64,000 bases of DNA, from assembly GCF_017308985.1 (NCBI RefSeq), contig NZ_JADWPE010000003.1, positions 1,054,001 through 1,118,000 of the forward strand, written 5' to 3'. The DNA is from Lysobacter changpingensis (GTDB taxonomy: Bacteria; Pseudomonadota; Gammaproteobacteria; Xanthomonadales; Xanthomonadaceae). A program made the position numbers and the translations under genes. Under the pieces are notes generated by a model. That model saw only the letters and a program-made list of their open reading frames with translations, had not been told where the DNA came from and did not search any database. Shown here in pieces: positions 4,548 through 21,067 of this stretch. The number at the start of each line of letters is the position of its first letter. The first letter of the stretch is position 1.

Positions 4548-4906
4548 GTTCGTTTCCGGAGTAAAAATCAGCGAGAGCTGGGCAGGCACGGAGACGAAGC
4601 GAAGAACATGTGTGCTCACACCGTCTTCGCCTGGTCATCACGTCACGATGATGTTCGTGACTGGTGCGCACCTTAGCTCACGCCACGCTGACGGAGATGA
4701 ACATGCGTGCGTGACTTTGCGTATTTGTGGTTTAGCTCAAGAAATATCGGGCGAATCGGTCAGACGCGTTGCCTCTTCACGTTTCTGACTGCGCCTGCGA
4801 GCGATTCTTCCGTTCCCGGGATTGGAGTCGCTTGGCTCTTCACATGCATGACGGGGTCGCTCACGCATCGCGGGCTACGCTTGCGATCGGTTTCCGGAGA
4901 TCCCTC
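4548..4906. other. Intergenic region between the beta-helix gene and the DUF3606 gene
   Basis: About 360 bases of lower GC than the flanks, between divergent genes. Both promoters should lie here. No -35/-10 pair convincing enough to annotate was seen, and no RNA gene or repeat. The GGAGA at 4896 is the ribosome site of the plus-strand gene. Confidence 0.5.
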
Positions 4907-5086
4907 ATGAGCGACGACCCGAACACCCGCGGCGAGCCCGACCGTTCGCGCATCAACGTCAACCAGGAACACGAACTGCGCTATTGGACGCAGGCGCTCG
5001 ACGTCACCGAAGAGGAGCTGCGCGAGGCCGTGCGTGCGGTCGGCGCGTCGGTCTCGGAGGTACGCGAATACCTCCGCAGCCGTTGA
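4907..5086 (+). CDS. DUF3606 small protein
   Basis: A 59-residue soluble protein. RINVNQEHELRYWTQALDVT followed by EEELREAVRAVGASVSEVREYL is the helix-turn pattern of DUF3606, common as a short stand-alone gene in Proteobacteria with unknown function. The start is an ATG with GGAGA 6 bases upstream. No operon partner; the receiver gene downstream converges on it. Confidence 0.8.
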   Translation: MSDDPNTRGEPDRSRINVNQEHELRYWTQALDVTEEELREAVRAVGASVSEVREYLRSR

Positions 5087-5129
5087 GGGCGCTGTCGCAC
5101 AAGCGGACTCTTCAGGGCGGAGCCCGCCT

Positions 5130-5504
5130 TCAGCGCGCGCATTCCCCGGAAGCGCCCGGCGTGGAGATCGCGGAAAGGATGTCCTCGAAGCGGTAGGGCT
5201 TCTGCAGGACGGGAACATGCGCGGGCGCCCCGCTGCTTTGCGCGTCGTATCCCGTCGCCAATACCACCGGAAAACCCGGCCTGATCCGCTGCATCGCGCA
5301 CGCGAGTTCAACGCCGCCCATGCCGCCGGGCAGTTCGACGTCGATCACCGCGCAGTCGAAGTTTTCCTGCTGGAACAACTGCAGCGCGGCTTGCGCGTCG
5401 GGCACCGCGCGCACGTCGAGTCCGGCCGCACTCAACGCCTGCACGGCGGTCTGCGCCAGCAGGTAACTGTCCTCGACGAAGAGCATGGAACACGAGCGGC
5501 GCAT
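5130..5504 (-). CDS. Single-domain response regulator
   Basis: A 124-residue receiver domain without an output domain. It shows the acidic pair (FVED near residue 10), the phospho-acceptor Asp in CAVIDVELPG (near 55), the Thr in VLATGYD and the Lys in VLQKPYRFEDI. It would pass phosphate from a histidine kinase to another protein or compete for it. No kinase gene is adjacent. The start ATG has GGGAG 5 bases upstream; a start six codons later (MLFVEDS) is possible. Confidence 0.85.
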   Translation of the reverse strand: MRRSCSMLFVEDSYLLAQTAVQALSAAGLDVRAVPDAQAALQLFQQENFDCAVIDVELPGGMGGVELACAMQRIRPGFPVVLATGYDAQSSGAPAHVPVLQKPYRFEDILSAISTPGASGECAR

Positions 5505-5711
5505 CGGCGTCTCCCAGTCATGTAGCCCCCTGCGGACCGATGCTAACCCGCCGTTGTCGGAAAAGCGTCGAAGCGGCGTGTAGCGCCAGTCACCCCACCG
5601 AACCGAACTCGAGCACCACGTGTGAACGCATGCGCCGTGCGTGGCTGGCTTCACGTGGAAGCCGCGTTTGTTCATATAGGGTCATAGCGAACTGTACAGG
5701 GAGCAGTCCGA

Positions 5712-6002
5712 ATGAATCTGGCCATCCAATGCCTGCCGCCAGGCTGGCGACTCGAAGCATTGCCGCCTTCGCGCGAACGTCGGGAATGCTGTCTTCGACT
5801 TACGACCCCACACGGACAGGAGATCACCTTTACCCACAAGCCATTCCAGTTCGCCTGCGACATCACGCGCGAGTTCGAGGCCGACCTTCGCGCTTTGCAA
5901 TCGCCTTGCGAACAGGCCGATCCATCGCTTCGCATCGCACGACCGGAACAGATCGGGAAGGACGGCTTCCCTTCACTGCAGCGGATCGCCGGCTGCGAGT
6001 GA
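5712..6002 (+). CDS. Unknown protein, first of a paralogous pair
   Basis: A 96-residue protein starting MNLAIQCLPPGWRLEALPPS, with AGGGAG about 8 bases upstream. It shares with the next gene the order LPPxWRLE, a central Cys, TPHGxxIxFxH and ACxxT. No known domain was recognised, and no signal or membrane segment. Two cysteines in ECCLRL and one in the AC pair may matter. The pair sits 49 bases apart and is probably co-transcribed. Confidence 0.6.
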   Translation: MNLAIQCLPPGWRLEALPPSRERRECCLRLTTPHGQEITFTHKPFQFACDITREFEADLRALQSPCEQADPSLRIARPEQIGKDGFPSLQRIAGCE

Positions 6003-6051
6003 GAACACACGAAGCCGTTTCCGTCCACGCCAACATCGAAGGGAGCCCACC

Positions 6052-6261
6052 ATGACACAGCCCTTGCATACGTTGCCGCCCGACTGGAGGCTGGAAGTGC
6101 ACGGCCCCGCATGCGGATGGCCGAACTGCACCATCATCATCACCAGCCCGCACGGACTGCAGATCCGCTTCGTCCACAGCCCCGACGAAAGCGCCTGCAA
6201 ACTCACCGAACAACTGCAGGAAGCGATGGGGTATCGACAGGACGTTTCCACCTGGCAGTAA
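6052..6261 (+). CDS. Unknown protein, second of a paralogous pair
   Basis: A 69-residue protein (MTQPLHTLPPDWRLEVHGPA). It repeats the pattern of the preceding gene (LPPDWRLE, then CTIIITSPHGLQIRFVHSPD and ACKLTEQLQEA) but lacks its 25-residue C-terminal extension. An AAGGGAG ribosome site lies about 6 bases upstream. The shared pattern at protein level argues that both are real genes of a small family. Confidence 0.6.
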   Translation: MTQPLHTLPPDWRLEVHGPACGWPNCTIIITSPHGLQIRFVHSPDESACKLTEQLQEAMGYRQDVSTWQ

Positions 6262-6494
6262 CAAGGGGAATGCACTCTCGCGGCACCGACGACCGGGGCG
6301 ACTGACGCTTCAATGCAGCCAGCCGCCCCGCACGTTCCTGGGGATGGCAGACGATGTTCCGGACGCGCCGTGGGCCATGCCGGCGGCGCGCAGGAAGCGT
6401 GTGCAGTTGGATGGTAATGTCACGCCTTCGTCCTCACGCAAGGCAGCCTGCCTCTCGATCGCGATCGACGCGGCGGGTACGAAAGGAGTCGCGC

Positions 6495-6905
6495 ATGGAA
6501 GTCTCAACGAGGGATCTCGTGGCGTTCGCTCACGTGGCCGATGTGGAACGGACCATCCGGTTCTATTCCGACCTGGGCTTCCACGTTGCGAACAGCGTCG
6601 TGCAGGAAGGCAGCACGGTTCCCGTATGGGCGTGGCTTGAAAGCGGGAAGGCGAACCTGATGGTGGGCGCGGCATCCGCGCCCGTGGAGGCGAGCCAGCA
6701 GGCGGTGCTCTTCTATCTGTACTACGGCGACATCAGGCAGGTGCATGCAACGCTGCTGGCTCTCGGCCACGAGCCGGGCGAAATCAGGCATCCGTTCTAC
6801 ATGCCCGGCGGCGAGTTCCGGCTGTGCGACCCGGACGGTTATGTCCTGATGTTGGCTCAGGCGCAGATCCGGCGAGCACGGGGCATCGCAATGAACCGGC
6901 AGTAG
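6495..6905 (+). CDS. VOC superfamily protein (glyoxalase/bleomycin resistance fold)
   Basis: A 136-residue protein made of two beta-alpha-beta-beta-beta modules. The first opens AFAHVADVERTIRFYSDLGF and contains WAWLESGKANLMVG. The second contains GHEPGEIRHPFYMPGGEFRL and CDPDGYVLMLAQ, the usual end of the domain. Such proteins bind a metal or small hydrophobic ligand; the substrate cannot be read from sequence. The ATG has GAAAGGAG at ideal spacing. It is a single gene. Confidence 0.85.
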   Translation: MEVSTRDLVAFAHVADVERTIRFYSDLGFHVANSVVQEGSTVPVWAWLESGKANLMVGAASAPVEASQQAVLFYLYYGDIRQVHATLLALGHEPGEIRHPFYMPGGEFRLCDPDGYVLMLAQAQIRRARGIAMNRQ

Positions 6906-7161
6906 CTCCGCTACGTTAGCCGGCGAATGCGTACTGCCCGCGGTCGCGTCGATCGTCGTCCTAGGGCATCGCCCGTGCGCAGCGTGTGCTCGAGCAGCCG
7001 TTTCCTGAGGGGCGGGGAACAAGCGCGATGTCATGTGGATGGCGCCTCAGGAGCTCCATCCGGCGGGTACGGGGGTGACACGGCCGCGCGCGTCGCGTCG
7101 GCCGAGGGAGTGCTAATGTCCGCTTCCGAACCATGGCGGACATACGCATGTTTGGTGACGC

Positions 7162-7500
7162 ATGAGCAATGACCCCACCGCCAAGGTGCTATTCCGCATC
7201 CCTGAAGATGATGGATCCGCGTCAGTCGAGACGCTGTGGGCAGTTCCACTCGGCAACGATCTGTACAAGTTGGACAACTCGCCGTTCTGCGCCTACGGAG
7301 TCTCCTGGCAAGACACGGTATACGCCCCCTTCGATCCCCAGGAAGGAATGCCCACCTTCCAGTCTGTCGTGGAGAGGTCTGGTAATCGAACCGTTCGCGT
7401 TATCCTCGTCCCCTCCGCATCAGCCGGTAGCGGGACGGAGGGCGTGCTACAGGGCTTGATCAATCTCGGTTGCAGCGACGAAGGGATGGCGCCGGGTTGA
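7162..7500 (+). CDS. DUF4265 protein, probably C-terminally truncated
   Basis: A 112-residue protein beginning MSNDPTAKVLFRIPEDDGSA. VETLWAVPLGNDLYKLDNSP with FCAYGVSWQDTVYA is the N-terminal half of DUF4265. As I recall the family it should continue past LGCSDEG for some tens of residues, but here it stops at MAPG. The last bases lie where the sequence switches to a tail-to-tail gene on the other strand. GC content drops visibly here, marking the left end of the island. Ribosome site weak (GGTGA). Confidence 0.6.
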   Translation: MSNDPTAKVLFRIPEDDGSASVETLWAVPLGNDLYKLDNSPFCAYGVSWQDTVYAPFDPQEGMPTFQSVVERSGNRTVRVILVPSASAGSGTEGVLQGLINLGCSDEGMAPG

Positions 7501-7796
7501 CCCAGTAGTTCCTCAGCAGTCTCCTGCGCATGCTCGCTGAGGAAATAGAGCGCCGCGAACAAACCCTCGGTGATCGACACATCCAAGGGTAGCTGCTTCA
7601 GGGGTGGCTCTTGGCTGCTCTCGAGCTGCCCCCGGAACGCGTCGCTGTTGGCCAGTACGCGTGCCAGCGCATGCACGCCCATCAGCATCCCGGTCAGCGC
7701 TGCCAGCGTGTGATCGCGCGGCTCAATGCCCTCGTAGGTCCAGAACTTTCGTCCCAGCGGGGAGACGTGCCGGCGCTGTGCTTCGATTGTGTCCAT
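7293..7796 (-). CDS. Unknown island protein, 3' end overlapping the DUF4265 gene
   Basis: 167 residues. The first ~105 (MDTIEAQRRHVSPLGRKFWT, then a helix HTLAALTGMLMGVHALARVL, then ITEGLFAALYFLSEHAQETA) look like a natural helical protein and have a strong AGGAG ribosome site 7 bases upstream. The remaining ~60 residues are only the antisense of the DUF4265 gene, so the natural C-terminus seems lost and the frame runs on to a chance stop. No family recognised. Confidence 0.5.
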   Translation of the reverse strand: MDTIEAQRRHVSPLGRKFWTYEGIEPRDHTLAALTGMLMGVHALARVLANSDAFRGQLESSQEPPLKQLPLDVSITEGLFAALYFLSEHAQETAEELLGQPGAIPSSLQPRLIKPCSTPSVPLPADAEGTRITRTVRLPDLSTTDWKVGIPSWGSKGAYTVSCQETP

Positions 7797-7837
7797 CCAT
7801 CAACTCCTGTACAGGTGAAGTCGACACATTCATGCCT

Positions 7838-8383
7838 TCAGTCGCGCGAAGCATTCAAGTCGCCGATGAGCTCTAATCCCGCACCAGTTCCATGCACACT
7901 AGAGAACGACACGCGCGCGAGTTGAAGTGTTGACACGGGGCTGTTCGGCCGCCTGTCCTCGGCAAGACCGGTTCGTGTCCCTGTAACTCGTTCGATCCTG
8001 ACCGACCTGACTTCAGATATCTCCGCCATGAGGACGAACGCGGCGTTGATGATGAAGGGCCTTGACAAGTTCATGGCCAGCGCAGCGACCGTCAGCGCGA
8101 TGGCGCTGAGCGGCCTACCCCCGACTGATACGCACAGAATCACCAATGCCGACACAAGAATCGAGAGCGTAACAAGCAACACTCTGCGCGCTCCGAACCT
8201 GTCGGCGGCAGCCCCTGCGAGTCCCTGCAATAGGAATGAGGCCAGGAACTCGCTGACATACACAAACGTAAAGGCCCACAGGTCGCCCGTGAGCTTGTAC
8301 AAGAGCATGCCAAGCGTCAGCGTGAACAGGCCTCGGGCGACATTCACGGCGAGTTCGGCGATTGCTATCTGGTACATCGACAA
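7838..8383 (-). pseudogene. Truncated MFS transporter (first four membrane segments only)
   Basis: 181 residues where an MFS permease has about 400. Residues 1-120 are the expected start: four hydrophobic segments (for example LAVNVARGLFTLTLGMLLYK) and the loop-2/3 signature GAAADRFGARRVLL. After AFVLMAEISE the sequence becomes polar and unlike a transporter. No other frame continues the permease, so the rest is deleted, not frameshifted. It lies directly downstream of the ATP-grasp gene on the same strand, the arrangement of a biosynthetic ligase with its exporter. Confidence 0.75.
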
Positions 8384-8527
8384 GACCTTGCTGATTAGCT
8401 TTCGCCAGAGGCGGGACGTGGCGGCGACGCGCCATCTCCAAGCACGTCGGCTGCGTGCGCGACTCTCGCGCCCCTTCCGCGCACCCCCAGTTCAGCCACG
8501 CCAAACATGAAGCCCGCCGGGACCTGC

Positions 8528-9763
8528 TCAGCACTCGGACATCAACTGGAGACGCAGCAAGGCGCTGCCCGCCTTCGCAATCTCGATAGCCGTATCCGGA
8601 TCATCTGAAAGCGCGATCACTTTTGCGATCCGATCGAACGAGTTTTGCACGGGCCCGACCTTCTCGCCGCGATCCTTCAGAATGCTGACGTCGTAAACGC
8701 CATCCAGAACCTCGGCTGCGCGCACATTGGTCACGTCATACAAGCGTCCCTCGACCCCCTCGTCGGGGAACAAAAACCAGATCGCTGCGGATTTCGCTTG
8801 CGAATCACTGGCAATCACAGAATCTAGAACAGGCTCGCCAACTGATTGCCTAGCCGTGATTGAAGTGAGGTTCACGCCCGTGCTCAACCTCACCAGTTCC
8901 CAGATGTAATCACCGCCGCCCCTCGTATGGGTTTCGATGAACCTAGGCCCATCCTTGGTGAGGATGATCTCCGTGTGGGTCGGGCCGTCTGTAATGCCGA
9001 GAGCCTCGATCACATCAATGACGTAATTCTTGACTTGCTCCTCATCCTCGACACTCAGGCGGGCCGGAATCACGTGCCCGATTTCCACTCGCGAGCTTTG
9101 ATGGACATACTTCCGGGTAATAGCAAGGATGCGATGCACACCGCCTTCAGAGAAGCCCTCGACGCTGAACTCAGGGCCTTCATGGAACCGCTCCAGCATT
9201 GCTGGGTAGCCGCCCTTGGATCTCCTATAATAGTCAGCGGCCAGCGCAACCTCCGCGACGTTCATGATGATGGAGACGCCCGAGCTCGCGGTCGCATCAT
9301 GCGGCTTCATCACCAGCGGAAAGCCAAGCTGCTCAGCCTTTGTAAGGAGCTGCTGTTCGGTGTCGACTAACATGAATTCGGTCGAGTCTAGTCCTGCCGC
9401 TCTCAGGACTGCGCGCGCCCTGTCCTTGTCCATAATGTTGCGCAGAGTCTCTAAGCTCAACTTCATATCGATCGCGAGAACTTCTGCAACGTTTATCGCG
9501 ATCTCTTGATAGCCATCATGGAAACAGCAGATTGCGTCAAACGGCCTTTCTGCGTGCAGCAGCTTCGCGAGCCTGACGTAGTCCTCAACACCTTCTTCAT
9601 CGGCGAACAGGTGAACGTTCTCGTAGGGGAACTCCAAGTCTGCTTTAGCCATGTAGCTATTGAATGCGTACGCGCTCTTCCTCGTGAAGAGCACGATTCG
9701 CTGACTGATGTCCCTCAAACCTTCGTGGCACTGCCTTGCACCGCCCAACAGCAAAACATTCAT
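8528..9763 (-). CDS. ATP-grasp carboxylate-amine ligase, island-borne
   Basis: A full-length 411-residue ATP-grasp enzyme. The N-terminal pre-ATP-grasp domain starts MNVLLLGGARQCHEGLRDIS. The nucleotide-binding loop is FPLVMKPHDATASSGVSII near residue 150. The metal site is RFIETHTRGGGDYIWELV near 270, with His where many relatives have Asn. The fold joins a carboxylate, via an acyl phosphate, to an amine; relatives include L-amino acid ligases that make dipeptide antibiotics (BacD type). The substrate is unknown. The codon use and GC content are lower than the core genes around it. Start ATG with GGAAG 7 bases upstream. Confidence 0.8.
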   Translation of the reverse strand: MNVLLLGGARQCHEGLRDISQRIVLFTRKSAYAFNSYMAKADLEFPYENVHLFADEEGVEDYVRLAKLLHAERPFDAICCFHDGYQEIAINVAEVLAIDMKLSLETLRNIMDKDRARAVLRAAGLDSTEFMLVDTEQQLLTKAEQLGFPLVMKPHDATASSGVSIIMNVAEVALAADYYRRSKGGYPAMLERFHEGPEFSVEGFSEGGVHRILAITRKYVHQSSRVEIGHVIPARLSVEDEEQVKNYVIDVIEALGITDGPTHTEIILTKDGPRFIETHTRGGGDYIWELVRLSTGVNLTSITARQSVGEPVLDSVIASDSQAKSAAIWFLFPDEGVEGRLYDVTNVRAAEVLDGVYDVSILKDRGEKVGPVQNSFDRIAKVIALSDDPDTAIEIAKAGSALLRLQLMSEC

Positions 9764-9787
9764 AAACCGTCTTCCATCGCAGATTGA

Positions 9788-9985
9788 TTAGCTTAGTGAT
9801 ATCGAGGTCGTGGGCTCATACAACTGGGTGGCCCAGCGACTCACCAGGGGATCCAGATAACTGATGCCCTTGTCCCTGACCAAGTCGATCAAACGCGCTT
9901 GCTGATCCGCGATGACGGGGTGGTCAGGGATGCTGCTCAGAATGTTGTTGACTACTTTGAGAGCAGAAGCACTAGCGGCAATCTT
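9788..9985 (-). pseudogene. C-terminal fragment of an unidentified low-GC gene
   Basis: About 65 residues (ALKVVNNILSSIPDHPVIAD and on, ending SISLS) in the same strand and base composition as the ATP-grasp gene, 24 bases before it. Upstream of about 9985 the sequence changes to GC-rich phage-like code in another frame, so the 5' part of this gene is gone. It probably was the preceding gene of the same cluster. Family not recognised. Confidence 0.6.
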
Positions 9986-10421
9986 CACCGAGCACCGGCT
10001 GCGTGGCGGCCGTGACCGCGCCCTGCGTGGCACCGGACACGGCGCGTCCAAGCACGCCCGCAGCGCGGGTGGCAGGCAGCACGGCACCGGCGACGCGTGT
10101 GCCCAGCGCCTGCAACGCCCGCGTCGGTGCCAGGTACGGCAGCACACTGCCGACCACGCCACCCACATCGCCGCCGAAGCTGCCCTGCGTGCGCTGCTGG
10201 TAATCGAGTTCGCGCTGACGCAGCGCGGCATCGTCGGCGGCCACGGTGTCGTTGACGTACTGACGCAGGCGTTGCGGCAGGGTCTGCGGCTCTGCAGCCC
10301 TTCCGGTCACCAGGCCGGACAGGCTCGGCGCCGGCTCGTTCACCAGCGCATTCACGCCGGCCTGCACGCCGTGACCGACCAACTGCGCCACGGGACCGCG
10401 AACGGCGAAGTCCCCGCGCAC
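9972..10421 (-). pseudogene. Phage structural/ejection protein remnant
   Basis: About 149 residues. Ala/Gly-rich amphipathic sequence (AALRQRELDYQQRTQGSFGG, then VVGSVLPYLAPTRALQALG, ending near TQPVLGED) resembles the glycine-rich N-terminal part of podovirus internal virion/ejection proteins as I know them. It breaks off at about 9985 where the low-GC fragment begins, and no sensible start is visible upstream. It lies next to tRNA-Pro, a common phage integration site. Identification is by composition and pattern only. Confidence 0.5.
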
Positions 10422-10570
10422 GGAGATAACAGCGGAGGAGAGAGCGCATTAAGAGGAGAAATCGGCATCAGGCCGAAAGCGCGAAGTCCCATCGACTCGC
10501 GCAACACCTTGCGAACAAAGTGGAAACTGCACTCCCGCATGCAGCGGGAGAAAAATTCGATTCCGCAAGA

Positions 10571-10647
10571 TGGTCGGGACGGCCGGATTCGAACCGACGA
10601 CCCTCTGCCCCCCAGGCAGATGCGCTACCAGGCTGCGCTACGCCCCG
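10571..10647 (-). tRNA. tRNA-Pro (GGG)
   Basis: 77 bases including encoded CCA. Acceptor stem CGGGGCG pairs with CGUCCCG (one G-U). The anticodon stem-loop is UCUGC-CUGGGGG-GCAGA with anticodon GGG, and the T-arm is GGTTCGAATCC. It follows merR on the same strand and borders the genomic island. Confidence 0.95.
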
Positions 10648-10736
10648 ACGTGTTGCTTGTGCCGCCCTTGCGAGCGGGCGGCAAGTATAACGGTTGAACC
10701 CTCGCCGCGGCCACCGCGGCGTTTCCTCGCGGCGAT

Positions 10737-11093
10737 TCAGCGTCGCAGCAGCTGCAGGACTTCTTCCAGCTCCATCCGCACCTGGCGGATGATCTGCGAG
10801 CTCAGCGCGGACTCGTCCTTCGCCGTCTCGCCTTCCAGGCGCAGACGCGCGCCGCCGATGGTGTAGCCCTGCTCGTACAGCAGGCCGCGGATCTGGCGCA
10901 CCATCAGCACCTCGTGGCGCTGGTAGTACCGTCGGTTGCCACGACGTTTGACCGGGTTGAGCATCGGGAACTCGGTTTCCCAATAGCGCAGCACGTGCGG
11001 CTTCACGTCGCACAGCTCGCTGACCTCACCGATGGTGAAGTAGCGCTTGGCCGGGATCGGCGGGAGTTCGCGATTGCTGCCGGGGTCAAGCAT
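10737..11093 (-). CDS. MerR family transcriptional regulator
   Basis: 118 residues. The winged helix-turn-helix is at residues 16-75: [29 protein letters not shown], then [20 protein letters not shown]. The C-terminal part is a short dimerisation helix ([13 protein letters not shown]) without a cysteine-rich effector domain. Its start overlaps the end of ihfA by 8 bases, so it is translationally coupled to it. This ihfA-merR-tRNA-Pro order is, to my knowledge, usual in gammaproteobacteria. The signal sensed is unknown. Confidence 0.9.
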
Positions 11094-11388
11094 GCTCAGC
11101 TCCGGAATAGGCTTCCACGCGTTCCTTCAGTTTCTGGCCGGGGCGGAAGGTCACCACGGTGCGGGCGGAGATCGGGATCTCCTCGCCGGTCTTCGGGTTG
11201 CGGCCCGGACGCTGGTTCTTGCGGCGCAGGTCGAAGTTGCCGAACCCGGAAAGCTTCACCTGGCGACCGTGCTCCAGCGCCTCGCGCAGCGCGTCGAAGA
11301 ACGCGTCCACGAATTCCTTCGCCTCCCGCTTGTTCAGCCCGACTTCGTCGAACAGGCGTTCGGCCATCTCGGCCTTGGTCAATGCCAT
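11086..11388 (-). CDS. ihfA: Integration host factor subunit alpha
   Basis: 100 residues, the family's usual length. It forms the IHF heterodimer with IhfB, which bends DNA at specific sites. The HU/IHF fold is complete: [20 protein letters not shown] helices, the core [14 protein letters not shown], and the beta-arm [20 protein letters not shown] with the Pro that intercalates DNA. The start is the ATG of MALTKAE; a 23-codon upstream extension of the frame is unlike any IHF. Located 17 bases after pheT in the pheST-ihfA operon. Confidence 0.97.
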
Positions 11389-11405
11389 CGTCGCTTTCCT
11401 CAACC

Positions 11406-13793
11406 TCAGCCGCGGATCGTTGCCCCGTACTCCCGCTGCAGCGCGTCGGTCACGCACGCCACTGCGGAATCGACGTCACGGTCAGTCAGGGTGCGCGATT
11501 CATCCTGCAGAATCAAGCCCATAGCGAGACTTTTGAAACCCGGTTCAACGCCCTTGCCCTGGTAGCGATCGAACAGCACCAGATCGCGCAGGAACGGGCC
11601 CGCGGCGGTCTTCACGGCCTGGCCGATGGCGGCCCATTCGACGTTCTCCGGGACGACGAACGCGAGGTCCCGGCGGACGGACGGGTATTTCGACAGGGCA
11701 CCGGCGCGTGGCACGGCGCGGCTGAACAGGGGCGACAGGTCGAGCTCGAAAGCGATCACGTCCACGTCCAGTTCCAGCGCGCGTTGCAGGCGCGGGTGCA
11801 ACTGGCCGATCCAGCCGAGCTTCACGCCGTCGCGGTACACGTCGGCCGAACGCCCCGGATGCGCCCAGGCGGGCTGGGAGGCGCGGTAGTCGAGCGAGGC
11901 ACCGGCAAGCGCGGCGAGGCTGTCGAGGTCGCCCTTCAGATCGTGGAAGCCGATGGTACGTGCCGTGGCCCCCCACTGCTCCGCATGCACGTCGCCGCAC
12001 GCGGCGGCGGCGATGCGGCCGGTTTCGATCGGCGCATCGCCCGCGTTGGCGCGGAACACATTGCCCAGCTCGAACAGGCGCACGCGCGGCTGCTGGCGCG
12101 CGGCGTTGCGCGCGAGCGCGGCGACCAGGCCCGGCAGCAGCGCGGTGCGCATGACACCGAGTTCGCCGCTGAGCGGATTGGCCAACGGCACGCTGCCGTC
12201 GGTGAGGCCCCACGTCGCGAGCAGGTCGGCATCGACGAAGGCGTAGTTCACCGCTTCCAGGTAATCGCGCGAGGCGAGCTGGCGGCGCGCGGTGGATTCG
12301 TCGACGCGGGTTTCGCTCGGCGCCACCAGGCGCGCGGCGCCGGCGGGCAGCGTCGTCGGGATCGTGTCGTAGCCGTGGATGCGAGCGATTTCCTCGATCA
12401 GGTCCTCTTCGATTTCCAGATCGAATCGACGGGTTGGCGGCACCACGCGCCAACCGTCGGCGACGGTTTCGACCTGCAGGCCAAGCGCGCTCAGGATGCG
12501 TTCGACCTCGGCATCGGCGACCGTCAGTCCCAGCACGCGTGCCAGGCGCGCACGGCGCAGTACGATCGGCTGCGGCTTGCGCAGGTGTTCGGTGAGCGTC
12601 ACGTCCAGCGTCGGGCCCGGCACGCCGCCTGCGATGTCGACGATCAGCTTCGTCGCGTATTCCACCGCGATGCGCGGCAGTTCCGGATCGACGCCGCGTT
12701 CGAATCGGTGGCCGGCGTCGGTGTGCAGGCCGAGCTTGCGGCTGCGGCCGATGATCGCCGACGGAATCCAATGCGCGGCTTCGAGGAACACGTTGCGCGT
12801 GGTGTCGGTCACCCGCGTGTCGTAGCCGCCCATGATGCCGCCCAGTGCGACGGCGCGCGCACCCTTGCCACCGGTGCTGTCGGAAACGACGAGGAAATCG
12901 TCGTCGAGTTCGACGGTGCGCCCGTCGAGCAGCTTGAGCGATTCGCCGGCACGGGCCGGGCGCACGACGACGTCGCCTTCCAGCGTGTCCTTGTCGAAGG
13001 CGTGCATCGGCTGGCCGAGTTCGAGCATCACGTACTGCGTGACGTCCACGAGGAAGCTGATCGGCCGCACGCCGCTACGGCGCAGGCGCTCGGCCATCCA
13101 TGCCGGCGTGGACACGGTGGCGTCGACGTTGTCGATCACGCGGCCTGCAAAGCGTGGCACGCGCGGTCCGGCGTCGAGCTCGACGCGGATCGTCGCCCCG
13201 CTCTGCGCGGAAACGTCGGTGGCGTCGAGTGGCTTCACTTCACTGCCGAGCGCGGCGGCCACGTCGTACGCGATGCCGCGCACGCTGAAGCAGTCGGCAC
13301 GGTTGGGCGTCAGCTTGATCTCGATGCTGGCATCAGGCAGGCCGAGGTACTGCGCGAGCGGCGTGCCGACCGGGGCGCCGTCGGGCAGTTCGAGCAGGCC
13401 CGAGGCGTCCGGATCGACGCCCAGCTCCTTCGCCGAGCACAGCATGCCGAACGATTCCACGCCGCGCAGTTTGGCCGCCTTGATCGCGATACCGCCCGGC
13501 AGGTTCGCACCGACGGTGGCGAGCGGCGCCACCAGGCCCGCGCGCGCGTTCGGCGCGCCGCAGACGATCTGCACGGTGCCGTTGCCGGTGTCGACTTCGC
13601 ACACCTGCAGGCGGTCGGCTTCGGGGTGCCTGCTCGCGCTGACGATGCGCGCCACGACCACGCCGTCGAGCGAGTCGCCCAGCGGCGTGACCTCTTCGAC
13701 TTCCAGGCCGATCGCGGTCAGCGTCGCGGCGAGTTCGTCGCGCGAAGCGGTGGTCGGAACGTGGTGGCGCAGCCAGTTTTCGGAGAATTTCAT
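11406..13793 (-). CDS. pheT: Phenylalanine--tRNA ligase beta subunit
   Basis: 795 residues, normal for a bacterial PheT. With PheS it forms the alpha2-beta2 enzyme that charges tRNA-Phe. Domains in order: the N-terminal strand [20 protein letters not shown]; the tRNA-binding (EMAP-like) domain near 40-150 ([20 protein letters not shown]); the B3/B4 editing domain ([20 protein letters not shown]); B5 ([19 protein letters not shown]); the catalytic-like core; and the FDX-ACB anticodon-binding domain at the end ([20 protein letters not shown]). Separated from pheS by 97 bases containing a palindromic repeat. Confidence 0.97.
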
Positions 13794-13802
13794 GGTGAAA
13801 GC

Positions 13803-13889
13803 CGGGAATCGGGAATGGTGAATCGGGAACCGGAATGCGGTGATGGGTTTCGCTTCTACGATTCCCCATTCCCCATTCCCGGTTCCCGC
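13803..13889. repeat. GGGAAT-type intergenic palindrome
   Basis: The pheS-pheT gap is filled by GGGAATCGGGAATGG-like units on the left and their complements (ATTCCCCATTCCC) on the right, able to fold into one long imperfect hairpin. Such GGGAAT-rich dyads are frequent between Xanthomonadaceae genes. It has no T tail, so it is not a terminator; it may stabilise or process the pheST mRNA. Confidence 0.75.
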
Positions 13890-13890
13890 T

Positions 13891-15460
<1,570 letters not shown>

Positions 15461-15473
15461 TGTTCAGCCCTCC

Positions 15474-15671
15474 TCAGAGATACGGCAGCATGCGATCGAG
15501 ACGGCCTGCGTCTTCGGCACGAACGTGGTTCGTCTGCCGCAGGTTGCGCTTCCGCTTGGTCGCCTTCTTGGTGAGGATGTGGCTCTTGTTGGCGTGGCCG
15601 CACTTGTACTTGCCGGAAGCGGTCTTCCGGAAGCGCTTGGCCGCCGCCCGATTGGTCTTGATCTTGGGCAT
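15474..15671 (-). CDS. rpmI: 50S ribosomal protein L35
   Basis: 65 residues: [20 protein letters not shown], then the [16 protein letters not shown] basic stretch, ending DRMLPYL. The start is the ATG of MPKIK with AAAGGA upstream; a 17-codon in-frame extension is not part of L35. First gene after its own promoter and leader. Confidence 0.97.
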
Positions 15672-15829
15672 TGCGATGTCCTTTCGGATTTCGATGACTG
15701 GCGTGGGCGGTGGCATGGCCACTCTTTCCGTCCTGCCCTGCCGGCTTGTAAGTCATTGATCCTCAAGAAAATACGCGGAGGATCAAGACAGGTTCCGTGA
15801 TACAGCAACAACAAACCCGGCGAACCGGG
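15672..15829 (-). promoter_or_regulatory. rpmI-rplT mRNA leader, candidate L20 autoregulatory region
   Basis: About 155 bases of untranslated leader from the promoter at 15836-15864 to rpmI. It contains a perfect 9-bp hairpin (15756-15764 with 15778-15786, TTGATCCTC). Long structured leaders before rpmI are the site of L20 feedback in E. coli and B. subtilis; that this one works the same way is inference. Confidence 0.55.
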
Positions 15830-15835
15830 CCGCAC

Positions 15836-15864
15836 ATTATGCGGGGCCGACGGGCGGGTTGCAA
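15836..15864 (-). promoter_or_regulatory. Sigma-70-type promoter for rpmI-rplT
   Basis: On the minus strand TTGCAA (15859-15864), 17 bases, CATAAT (15836-15841). Near-consensus spacing and boxes inside very GC-rich sequence, located after the infC terminator and before rpmI. Confidence 0.7.
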
Positions 15865-15958
15865 ATCTTTTCTTTGAAAATCAGCGGGTTTGGCGCGAAG
15901 GCGGCGCTGCGGGTCGATTCTGTCCGATCCGCCTGCCGGCCGGGGCCGCAGCCCGCCC

Positions 15959-15990
15959 CTGCAAAGCGAAGGGCGCCTTCCGGCGCCCCT
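15959..15990 (-). terminator. Terminator after infC
   Basis: A 7-bp GC stem (GGGCGCC 15971-15977 with 15982-15988) and a 4-base loop, followed on the minus strand by TTCGCTTTGC. The tail is short, so partial read-through into rpmI is likely. Confidence 0.6.
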
Positions 15991-16036
15991 CTCTCATTGC
16001 CTGGCCCGCTCCCGCCGGCGGGAGCCGACGCGAGGC

Positions 16037-16558
16037 TCACTTCTTCTTCGGCGCGATCATCATGACCATCTGGCGGCCTTCCAGGCGCGGGCGCGACTCG
16101 ATGACGATGTCCTCGCCGAGGTCGGCCTCGATGCGTGCGGCCATCTCGCGGCCCAGTTCCTGGTGGCTCATCTCGCGGCCACGGAAGCGGATGTTGACCT
16201 TGACCTTGTCGCCCTCTTCCAGGAAGCGGCGCATGTTGCGCAGCTTGATCTGGTAGTCGCCCTCGTCGGTCACGGGACGGAACTTGAGTTCCTTGATCTC
16301 GACCTGCTTCTGCTTCTTCTTGGCCTCGTTGGCCTTTTTCTGCTGCTCGAAGCGGAACTTGCCGAAGTCCATGATCTTGCAGACCGGCGGATCGGCGTTC
16401 GGCTGGATCTCCACAAGATCCAGATCCTCGTCCTCGGCCATGCGCAGCGCTTCGTCGCGCGTGAGCACGCCGATCATCTCGCCATCGCTGCCGATCACGC
16501 GCACGCGCGGGACGCGGATTTCCTGGTTCTTGCGATTCGGCTTCTCGGGGGTACTGAT
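16037..16558 (-). CDS. infC: Translation initiation factor IF-3, with an ATC start codon
   Basis: 173 residues when read from ATC at 16558. IF-3 binds the 30S subunit, checks the start codon and blocks 50S joining. The N-domain begins [20 protein letters not shown], then [17 protein letters not shown]; the linker [16 protein letters not shown] leads to the C-domain ([20 protein letters not shown]) ending IAPKKK. No ATG or GTG is available before the conserved [12 protein letters not shown] sits 8 bases after GGAG at the expected family start. IF-3 genes typically use AUU/AUC so that IF-3 limits its own translation. Confidence 0.93.
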
Positions 16559-16583
16559 GTTGCAATCTCCGGTATGGAACGTG

Positions 16584-16603
16584 CCGGCCGCCGTGGCGGC
16601 CGG
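16584..16603 (-). repeat. Inverted repeat in the thrS-infC spacer
   Basis: A perfect 9-bp dyad (CCGGCCGCC, 2-base centre, GGCGGCCGG) about 25 bases before the infC start. There is no T run after it, so it is not a terminator; it could control access to the infC ribosome site or mRNA cleavage. Confidence 0.5.
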
Positions 16604-16624
16604 GGTCAGGTCTGGCTGCAGGCG

Positions 16625-18526
16625 CTACTGTACGCCTTCACTGCGCAAACGCGAGGCGAAATCGGAGACGGTCATCGTCCCCAGATCCTCCCCTCCCCGC
16701 GTGCGGACGGCGATCTGGCCGTTTTCCTTCTCGCGGTCGCCGACTACCAGCAGGTAAGGCACGCGCTGCAGCGTGTGCTCGCGGATCTTATAGCCGATCT
16801 TCTCGTTGCGCAAATCGGAATGGACCCGGAAGCCTTGATTTGCAAGGGTTTTCCGGACTTCGTCGACGTAGTCGGCCTGGGCGTCGGTGATGTTCATGAC
16901 CACGGCCTGGACCGGGGCCAGCCAGGCGGGGAACTGGCCGGCGTGGTGCTCGATCAGGATGCCGATGAAGCGCTCCATCGAGCCCACGATGGCCCGGTGC
17001 AGCATCACCGGGTGGCGGCGCTGGCTGTGTTCGTCGACGTATTCGGCGCCGAGGCGGCCCGGCATCATGAAGTCCACCTGCATCGTGCCCAGCTGCCAGG
17101 TGCGGCCAATGGCGTCCTGCAGGTGGTATTCGATCTTCGGGCCGTAGAAGGCGCCCTCGCCCGGCAGCTCCTGCCACTCCACGCCGGCGGCACTGAGCGC
17201 CGAACGCAGCGCGTTCTCGGCCTTGTCCCACGTGGCGTCGTCGCCCAGGCGGGAGTCCGGGCGCAGCGCGATCTTGATCTGGATGTCGGTGAAGCCGAAA
17301 TCGCCGTAGACCTTCAACGCCTGCTCGTGGAAGGCGCGCACTTCGGATTCGATCTGGTCCTCGGTGCAGAAGATGTGGCCGTCGTCCTGCGTGAAGCCGC
17401 GCACGCGCAGGATGCCGTGCAGCGCGCCCGAAGGCTCGTTGCGATGGCACGCGCCGAACTCGCCGTAGCGGATCGGCAGGTCGCGGTAGCTGTGCAGGCC
17501 CTGGTTGAACACCTGCACGTGGCCCGGGCAGTTCATGGGCTTCAGCGCGTAGGTCCGCTTCTCGGACTCGGTGAAGAACATGTTGTCCTTGTAGTTGTCC
17601 CAGTGGCCGGATTTCTGCCACAGCGACACGTCGAGGATCTGCGGGCAACGCACTTCGCCATAGCCCGTCTCGCGGTACACGCGACGCATGTACTGCTCGA
17701 CGACCTGCCAGATCGACCAGCCCTTCGGATGCCAGAAGATCAGGCCGGGGCCTTCTTCCTGCAGGTGGAACAGGTCCTGTGCCTTGGCGATCTTCCGGTG
17801 GTCGCGCTTCTCGGCTTCCTCCAGCTGCGTCAGATACGCCTTGAGGTCCTTGTCGTTGAGCCACGCCGTGCCGTAGATGCGGCTGAGCATCTCGTTGTTG
17901 TGGTCGCCGCGCCAGTACGCGCCAGCCACCTTCATCAGCTTGAACGCGCGCAGCTTGTCCGTGGACGGCACGTGTGGGCCGCGGCACAGATCGGTGAACT
18001 CGCCCTGGCTGTACAGCGAGAGGTCTTCGCTCGCCGGGATCGATTCGATGATCTCCGCCTTGTACGCCTCGCCCAGGCCGCGAAAGAACGCCACCGCGTC
18101 GTCGCGCGACTTCACGCTGCGCGAGACCGGCAGCGATTCCTTGACGATCTTCTGCATCTCGGCCTCGATGGCCGGCAGGTCTTCCGGCGTGAACGGGCGC
18201 TCGTAGGCGAAGTCGTAGTAGAAGCCGTTGTCGATCACCGGACCGATGGTGACCTGCGCGCCGGGGTACAGGCGCTGCACGGCCTGCGCGAGCAGGTGCG
18301 CGGTGGAGTGGCGCAGGACGTCGAGCGCGTCGGGATGCTTGTCGGTGACGATCTCGAGCGAGGCGTCGTTGGCGATGCGGTAGCTGGTGTCGACCAGCTT
18401 GCCGTCGACCTTGCCGGCGAGCGCGGCCTTCGCCAGGCCGGCGCCGATGGAGGCGGCCACTTCGGCCACGGAAACGGGATTTTCGAACTCGCGGCGGCTG
18501 CCGTCGGGGAGCGTGATGGCGATCAT
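16625..18526 (-). CDS. thrS: Threonine--tRNA ligase
   Basis: 633 residues, the standard length. Class II synthetase that charges tRNA-Thr. TGS domain at 1-60 ([20 protein letters not shown]); SAD editing domain near 70-220 with the Zn-type motif [11 protein letters not shown] and CRGPHVPST; catalytic core with motif 2 ([20 protein letters not shown]) and the zinc-binding Cys in MNCPGHV; and the C-terminal anticodon-binding domain ([20 protein letters not shown]). First gene of the thrS-infC block. A terminator-like hairpin lies about 55 bases upstream of the start. Confidence 0.98.
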
Positions 18527-18570
18527 GGGATGCGGGCGCGCGGTGCGCGGCTGGCTGATATGGGGAACCG

Positions 18571-18599
18571 GAAAACGAAAAACGGCGCCGCGGCGCCGT
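18571..18599 (-). terminator. Terminator-like hairpin in front of thrS
   Basis: An 8-bp perfect stem (ACGGCGCC 18582-18589 with 18592-18599) followed on the minus strand by TTTTTCGTTTTC, 45 bases before the thrS ATG. No gene lies between it and the tRNA-Val terminator upstream. It may be a second tRNA terminator or a transcription attenuator for thrS. Confidence 0.65.
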
Positions 18600-18775
18600 C
18601 TGGAAGGGCGTCGTGGGCGCTCAGCGGTGGGCGATGGTAGTGCTCATGTCGCACGCTCGGCCGGCGGTTTGCCGCGGGCCACCTTCGTTTCGTGTTTCGG
18701 GCGATCGCCCGGGAATGCGGGAAGTGTTGGGGCTGCTGGCGGCCAAGTCAACGCCGGCGATCGCTGGCTGGCCCG

Positions 18776-18814
18776 GAAAAGAAGAACGGCGCGCCCCGTG
18801 AGGATCGCGCCGTT
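18776..18814 (-). terminator. Terminator after tRNA-Val
   Basis: A 9-bp stem (AACGGCGCG, 18785-18793 with 18806-18814) with a 12-base loop, followed on the minus strand by TTCTTTTCC. It lies 16 bases past the tRNA 3' end. Confidence 0.75.
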
Positions 18815-18829
18815 CGAACCACTGTGTAG

Positions 18830-18904
18830 TGGTGGGCGGTACAGGGTTCGAACCTGTGACCCCTACCATGTCAAGGTAGTGCTCTACCGCTGAGCTAACC
18901 GCCC
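18830..18904 (-). tRNA. tRNA-Val (GAC)
   Basis: 75 bases with encoded CCA. Acceptor GGGCGGU pairs with ACCGCCC. The anticodon loop UUGACAU gives GAC. D-arm AGCTCAGCGGTAGAGC and T-arm AGGTTCGAACCCT are canonical. Confidence 0.95.
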
Positions 18905-18966
18905 GGAATTTCGCCGGACTTCATCCGGATTCCCCCCCGCCGCGAACCGCTCGTCGAGGGGCGCGC

Positions 18967-18995
18967 AGTGTAAACCGTCGGCCCCGCTGCGGCAA
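18967..18995 (-). promoter_or_regulatory. Candidate promoter of tRNA-Val
   Basis: On the minus strand TTGCCG (18990-18995), 17 bases, TACACT (18967-18972), about 60 bases before the tRNA. Reasonable sigma-70 match located in the uvrB-tRNA gap. Confidence 0.5.
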
Positions 18996-19027
18996 CAGGT
19001 CGGCGGCACCGGACCGCTGCGGCCGGT

Positions 19028-21067
<2,040 letters not shown>

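Follow-up and report, generated by a model that had tools for sequence, protein, structure and literature searches.

Beside a tRNA-Pro gene of Lysobacter changpingensis, within a stretch of 64,000 nt that we call the window, a complete gene for an ATP-grasp ligase adjoins a gene for an exporter of the major facilitator superfamily (MFS) that has lost most of its length. How did such a pair come to lie there, and what has become of it? A preliminary description of this DNA had seen a decayed island of low G+C content at about 7.15-9.98 kb, with an intact 411-residue ligase, an exporter cut after four helices, a cut C-terminal gene, a phage remnant and tRNA-Pro, and had compared the layout with that of bacilysin clusters. 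The foreign composition, the site beside the tRNA, the intact ligase, the broken exporter, its pairing with the ligase and the phage remnant were all borne out; the cut gene and the bacilysin comparison stood in part. We consider it likely that the locus is a relict piece of an operon in a tRNA-Pro hotspot, lying among pieces of different origin and carrying a divergent ligase of the L-amino acid ligase (LAL) type. The features are listed in Table 1.

Table 1. Features of the variable segment and related clusters in other genomes (positions are those of the window unless another locus is named).
Feature	Position	Strand	Basis
Variable segment, mosaic	4791..10559	.	Flanks conserved; blastn against tRNA regions of 11 congeners and whole-genome search
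DUF4265 gene, 3' end cut	7162..7500	+	PF14085, E 3.4e-21
Open reading frame (ORF) piece, unassigned	7500..7796	-	5' part of ORF 7293-7796; remainder antisense to DUF4265
MFS exporter remnant, N-terminal ~126 residues	8018..8425	-	33%/31% identity to MFS gene after ligase in G341 (L072)/V. tubiashii plasmid (L057)
G+C-rich spacer, ligase/MFS	8385..8527 (143 bases)	.	G+C 67.8% for 8385-8530
LAL-type ATP-grasp ligase, intact, 411 residues	8528..9763	-	ORF list; ATP-grasp_4 and LAL_C2 domains
C-terminal gene piece	9788..9991	-	Frame stop 24 bases before ligase start; 5' end probably lost at join
Phage gene, internal fragment	9986..10421	-	80% nt identity over 9986-10390 to IMG/VR contig L084
tRNA-Pro (GGG), conserved edge of variable segment	10571..10647	-	tRNA call; shared by congeners
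Related two-ligase clusters	L072 (G341) 7697-19108; L057 (V. tubiashii pFP31) 6457-19167

Gene order of the ligase and the exporter remnant

Two intact clusters, one in a genome of the same family (G341) and one on the V. tubiashii plasmid pFP31, share the order AMP-binding protein, ATP-grasp ligase, MFS exporter, citrate synthase and aconitase, and further along come DUF6025 and another ATP-grasp ligase; the citrate synthase of the G341 cluster carries a carrier domain. A literature search returned nothing on a gene set of this kind (AMP-binding, two ATP-grasp, citrate synthase, aconitase and DUF6025). As in the window, the gene after the ligase in both clusters is a homologous MFS gene on the ligase strand. 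Neither the two AMP-binding proteins nor the G341 citrate synthase was matched within the window or in the adjoining 20 kb on its left, a search that did not extend to the aconitase and DUF6025 genes.

The stretch 8344-8018 matches residues 19-126 of the 413-residue G341 exporter, and the remaining two thirds are absent. The only other match of this exporter in the window and the 20 kb to its left covered 19 residues (E 0.38) and was taken as chance. Because the rest of the exporter is missing from this range, the MFS piece has been cut rather than simply frameshifted; the cut falls at about residue 126, which would leave four helices. Among the other loci searched (E up to 1), the piece matched only the G341 and V. 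tubiashii exporters, and its homologous part is free of stops. In the two clusters the ligase and exporter genes overlap by 4 bases and the exporter is whole, whereas in the window the exporter is cut and the genes are separated by the spacer. Since a spacer replaces the overlap and the MFS frame has no ATG upstream of the start of homology, a further change probably occurred there.

Because the clusters of G341 and V. tubiashii have the same order of ligase and then MFS gene, the region at 8.02-9.99 kb was most likely torn from a foreign small-molecule operon that would have read unassigned gene, LAL-type ATP-grasp ligase and MFS exporter. If expressed, the ligase would use ATP to convert an amino acid or a related acid into an acyl phosphate and would then couple this to an amino acid; export of the product would have been the task of the lost transporter. 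Both neighbors of the ligase are cut, so the piece most likely makes no useful product today and is a relict.

An intact and divergent ligase

Pfam found ATP-grasp_4 (PF13535; 65.5 bits against a cut-off of 27, E 5.8e-18) and LAL_C2 (PF18603; 43.5 bits against 29.4, E 3.9e-11) in the ligase; judged by these two domains, both above their curated cut-offs, it is a member of the LAL family. None of the NCBIfam models shown reaches its own cut-off, the top score, 138.9 bits with NF002563 (argininosuccinate lyase subfamily), being well short of 625. The ligase was aligned with 13 relatives, which were chosen from search matches and are not proven LALs; one of them (L071) carries a stop in the matched stretch. 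K113, K153, E191, E202, K218, H263, E265, E277 and R281, which we take to be ATP/Mg and catalytic-type residues, are identical in all 14 rows. The ligase keeps 20 of the 21 sites that are invariant in the relatives (the sole exception is Leu252, replaced by Ile) and 44 of 48 near-invariant sites, both within the range of the other rows. With its conserved residues retained, the enzyme may be active.

At E 1e-25, 7 of 397 other genomes sampled from the order and 3 of 397 from the phylum had relatives, and at E 1e-30 none of 368 from the class had one (at most four candidates were scored per genome, and the samples overlap). When every candidate was scored, in 59 genomes, the 11 congeners gave only matches of E 1.8e-6 or weaker, or none. 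Identity over most of the length is at most 37% among the rows shown, rising to 39% in short partial matches; of the ligases in the whole genomes searched, that of G341 scores best, at 36%. By these comparisons the gene adds a new, divergent member to a ligase family already known. A tree of the 14 rows (3 of 11 inner branches starred) leaves the window ligase, itself a long row, without a well-supported position.

Several candidate sources of the ligase were rejected. All 366 matching plasmid records have less than 60% identity (28.1-36.8% among the 20 of the 366 that were listed), and no near plasmid donor was seen. Phage records gave no match, and neither of two candidate stretches in viral contigs was confirmed. 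A scan of genome contigs, from which the own and near genomes were perhaps left out, gave 39 candidate stretches and one locus, read as a D-Ala-D-Ala-ligase-like non-orthologue.

Composition and extent of the segment

The G+C content is 57.8% at 7150-9980 and 66.8% across the window, and the lowest 2,830-base stretch of the window begins at 7151 (scan in steps of 50). At 8018-9990 the value is 0.568; none of 1,129 outside 2-kb scanning frames (ending before 7000 or starting after 10600) is that low. The third-position G+C of the ligase is 0.684, against 0.865 in the neighboring long ORF 11409-13793. The content differs from piece to piece: 73.2% in the phage piece, 59.8% in the DUF4265 gene and 56.8% in the ligase piece.

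The segment was delimited with 12 genomes of the genus, including that of L. changpingensis (no more than 25 candidate stretches were scored in each); blastn compared 20 kb around the tRNA in all 11 congeners (14 kb for G009). In the nearest congener, G004, synteny with the window ends at 4791 and restarts at 10559, with about 480 bases between. The left synteny of the remaining congeners ends between ~1.1 and 4.8 kb; in G003, G008 and G009 it was not found within the stretch compared. All 11 share the sequence from ~10,570 (some from 10,524) through tRNA-Pro to ~11,450. In the whole-genome search, 7163-10523 had no counterpart in any of the 11 except for a 44-base match in G007; this part is thus specific to the genome and is not a gene set of normal composition common to close relatives. 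Of 297 genomes of the family, again including its own (two candidates scored per genome), the 296 others matched 7000-10560 only at the DUF4265 gene (two genomes), a 47-base stretch of the phage piece (one) and a short repeat at ~7.1 kb (two), and the DNA of the ligase piece matched none of them.

The several abrupt joins of unlike sequence inside 3.4 kb might point to a misassembly of unrelated sequences. This is very unlikely, since the segment lies within a 1.39-Mb contig of a 9-contig genome, with conserved flanks on both sides, and a second copy of 7480-8530 was not found in the genome (40 of 68 candidates scored).

Before 7.1 kb the segment is not entirely unique, and congeners match parts of it here and there. 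Matches of 73-75% were found for 6516-6860 (a VOC gene) elsewhere in G001, G003, G007 and G010 and for 5635-6255 in G001, G002 and G004; sequence close to the tRNA in G001 and G009 matches 4905-5047 and 5727-5879, two stretches of ~150 bases. A short dispersed repeat at 7094-7149 recurs with 78-94% identity at many sites in the own and congeners' genomes. The neighboring ORFs 5712-6002 and 6052-6261, which have no Pfam match, look alike by eye (unaligned) and are possible tandem copies.

A probable tRNA-Pro hotspot

The torn piece would have been caught at a tRNA-Pro hotspot, where fragments of varied origin have gathered. In 2 of the 11 congeners the tRNA-Pro 3' end is repeated on the same contig, no more than ~50 kb away: the copy in G002 has 57 bases (95%, 49 exact) and is 5.7 kb away, and that in G008 has 56 bases (93%) and is ~50 kb away, with an integrase ~2 kb from the tRNA. 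In G004 and G011 such copies are on another contig or far away. Besides itself, the tRNA 3' end has matches of 73-79% in the own genome.

We also noted in G008, on contig C2 at ~162-213 kb, a possible element of ~50 kb between tRNA-Pro and the 56-base 3'-end repeat.

Other gene pieces in the segment

The DUF4265 gene is ~40 C-terminal residues shorter than two copies from the same family. The ORF piece that follows it had no Pfam match at E 10 and no match in 98 other genomes of the family at E 0.001.

The frame of the C-terminal piece, with its stop at 9788, also runs open for some distance into the phage piece (ATG at 10231), though in a frame other than that of the phage gene; the limit near 9991 was drawn where the phage match ends. 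Pfam, NCBIfam, PHROGs, plasmid and genome searches gave no recognised family or convincing homologue for this piece, and its weak matches (7 of 238 other genomes, E 0.01-0.05; six plasmid records, E 2-6) were judged to be chance. DUF6025 was rejected as its identity, as the two have no similarity. Of the earlier description of a cut gene, the frame on the ligase strand is confirmed, and the cut gene itself is plausible.

The phage piece shares 86% amino acid identity with an interior part of a long open frame in the IMG/VR virus contig, both ends of which are missing here. It had no match in PHROGs or in the annotated phage collection, and none in 78 other genomes of the family. A promoter scan of 7000-10660 found none where 1.1 were expected by chance, and is hence uninformative; none of four proteins searched with PADLOC matched a defence family (E 0.01).

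Relict or gene in use

Several observations weigh against a relict operon piece in a hotspot. The C-terminal piece upstream of the ligase resembles nothing in the G341 and pFP31 clusters. At E 0.01 the MFS piece (122 residues) found nothing among the plasmids, a collection that includes the Vibrio exporter, and the similarity is therefore weak at the scale of the collection. No direct repeat of the tRNA 3' end was found at the far border of the segment, where the 30 kb to the left gave only matches of 9-13 bases. No integrase lies inside 4791-10559; the seven PF00589 matches of the genome (E 1e-6) are elsewhere, the nearest on the side of the segment ending ~18.6 kb from the tRNA. Lacking both repeat and integrase, the segment looks more like what earlier insertions left behind than like an intact island. 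The searches turned up no donor from which the age or order of the joins could be worked out. Finally, the ligase frame is unbroken with 1 of 21 invariant sites changed, which also fits a gene in use.

The last point raises the possibility that the ligase has been kept as a working orphan dipeptide synthetase, with a product that is retained inside the cell or secreted through a different exporter. The full-length frame and the retained invariant and near-invariant sites speak for it, as does a neutral simulation of the frame (substitutions only, 1,500 trials per setting), in which the frame stayed free of stops with a probability of 0.08-0.16 when 0.06 changes per site were applied and of 0.035-0.073 when 0.08 were. 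Over a flank of 7 kb the nearest congener has 87.8% identity to the window, roughly 0.06 changes per site per lineage; this yardstick is rough, as other flank pieces shared with the same congener range from ~77 to 95%. Simulation and flank together suggest that the unbroken frame reflects youth or selection, without separating the two. However, the arrival is undated, so a young insertion explains the open frame equally well, and the MFS piece, which is certainly broken, is likewise stop-free in its homologous part, which favors a young insertion. Moreover, each end of the piece falls within a gene, and the ligase may be whole just because it happened to lie between the cuts. We regard an orphan synthetase as unlikely. 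Survival alone does not decide between recent decay and retained function, and the open frame is weak evidence of selection.

A broader proposal is that the tRNA-Pro flank repeatedly captures foreign pieces of 1-2 kb, cut at random in mid-gene and without an integrase (for example, by illegitimate recombination in natural transformation), one of which brought a working, deeply divergent stand-alone dipeptide ligase; we think this improbable.

As a relict operon piece, the locus is an example of a single biosynthetic gene stranded whole in a chromosome with its partners cut away. At the identity levels given above, its divergent LAL-type ligase is a candidate biocatalyst. The locus is no indication that this organism has a new antibiotic cluster; in kind, it would be ordinary leftover DNA at an insertion hotspot.

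Comparison with known ligases

BacE is the MFS-exporter neighbor of BacD in the bacilysin system, and the window piece likewise has an LAL-type ligase beside an MFS gene; to this extent the earlier comparison with bacilysin stands. A bacilysin kinship finds no support. BacD is a distant relative of the window ligase (E 2.5e-9), to which the BacD equivalog model NF053745 gives 33.7 bits where 850 are required, and on this score a bacilysin identity was rejected. The ligase and exporter match instead the other type of cluster, with citrate synthase and aconitase genes. Pfam assigned the ORFs of the island to other families or to none, no search by bacilysin-pathway gene name having been made. 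A decayed bacilysin-type (bacD-bacE) antibiotic cluster is thus extremely improbable.

The best relative in the PDB, and a far better fit than BacD, is the L-amino acid ligase BL00235 (3vot; E 2e-23, residues 50-336), which has a similar length and shares the ATP-grasp_4 and LAL_C2 domains. The two are only distantly similar, and the specificity of the window ligase cannot be read off from BL00235. Pro85 of BL00235 is named as a specificity residue (PMC6920838); by a manual count on the alignment, the window ligase has Gly84 at the position of this residue.

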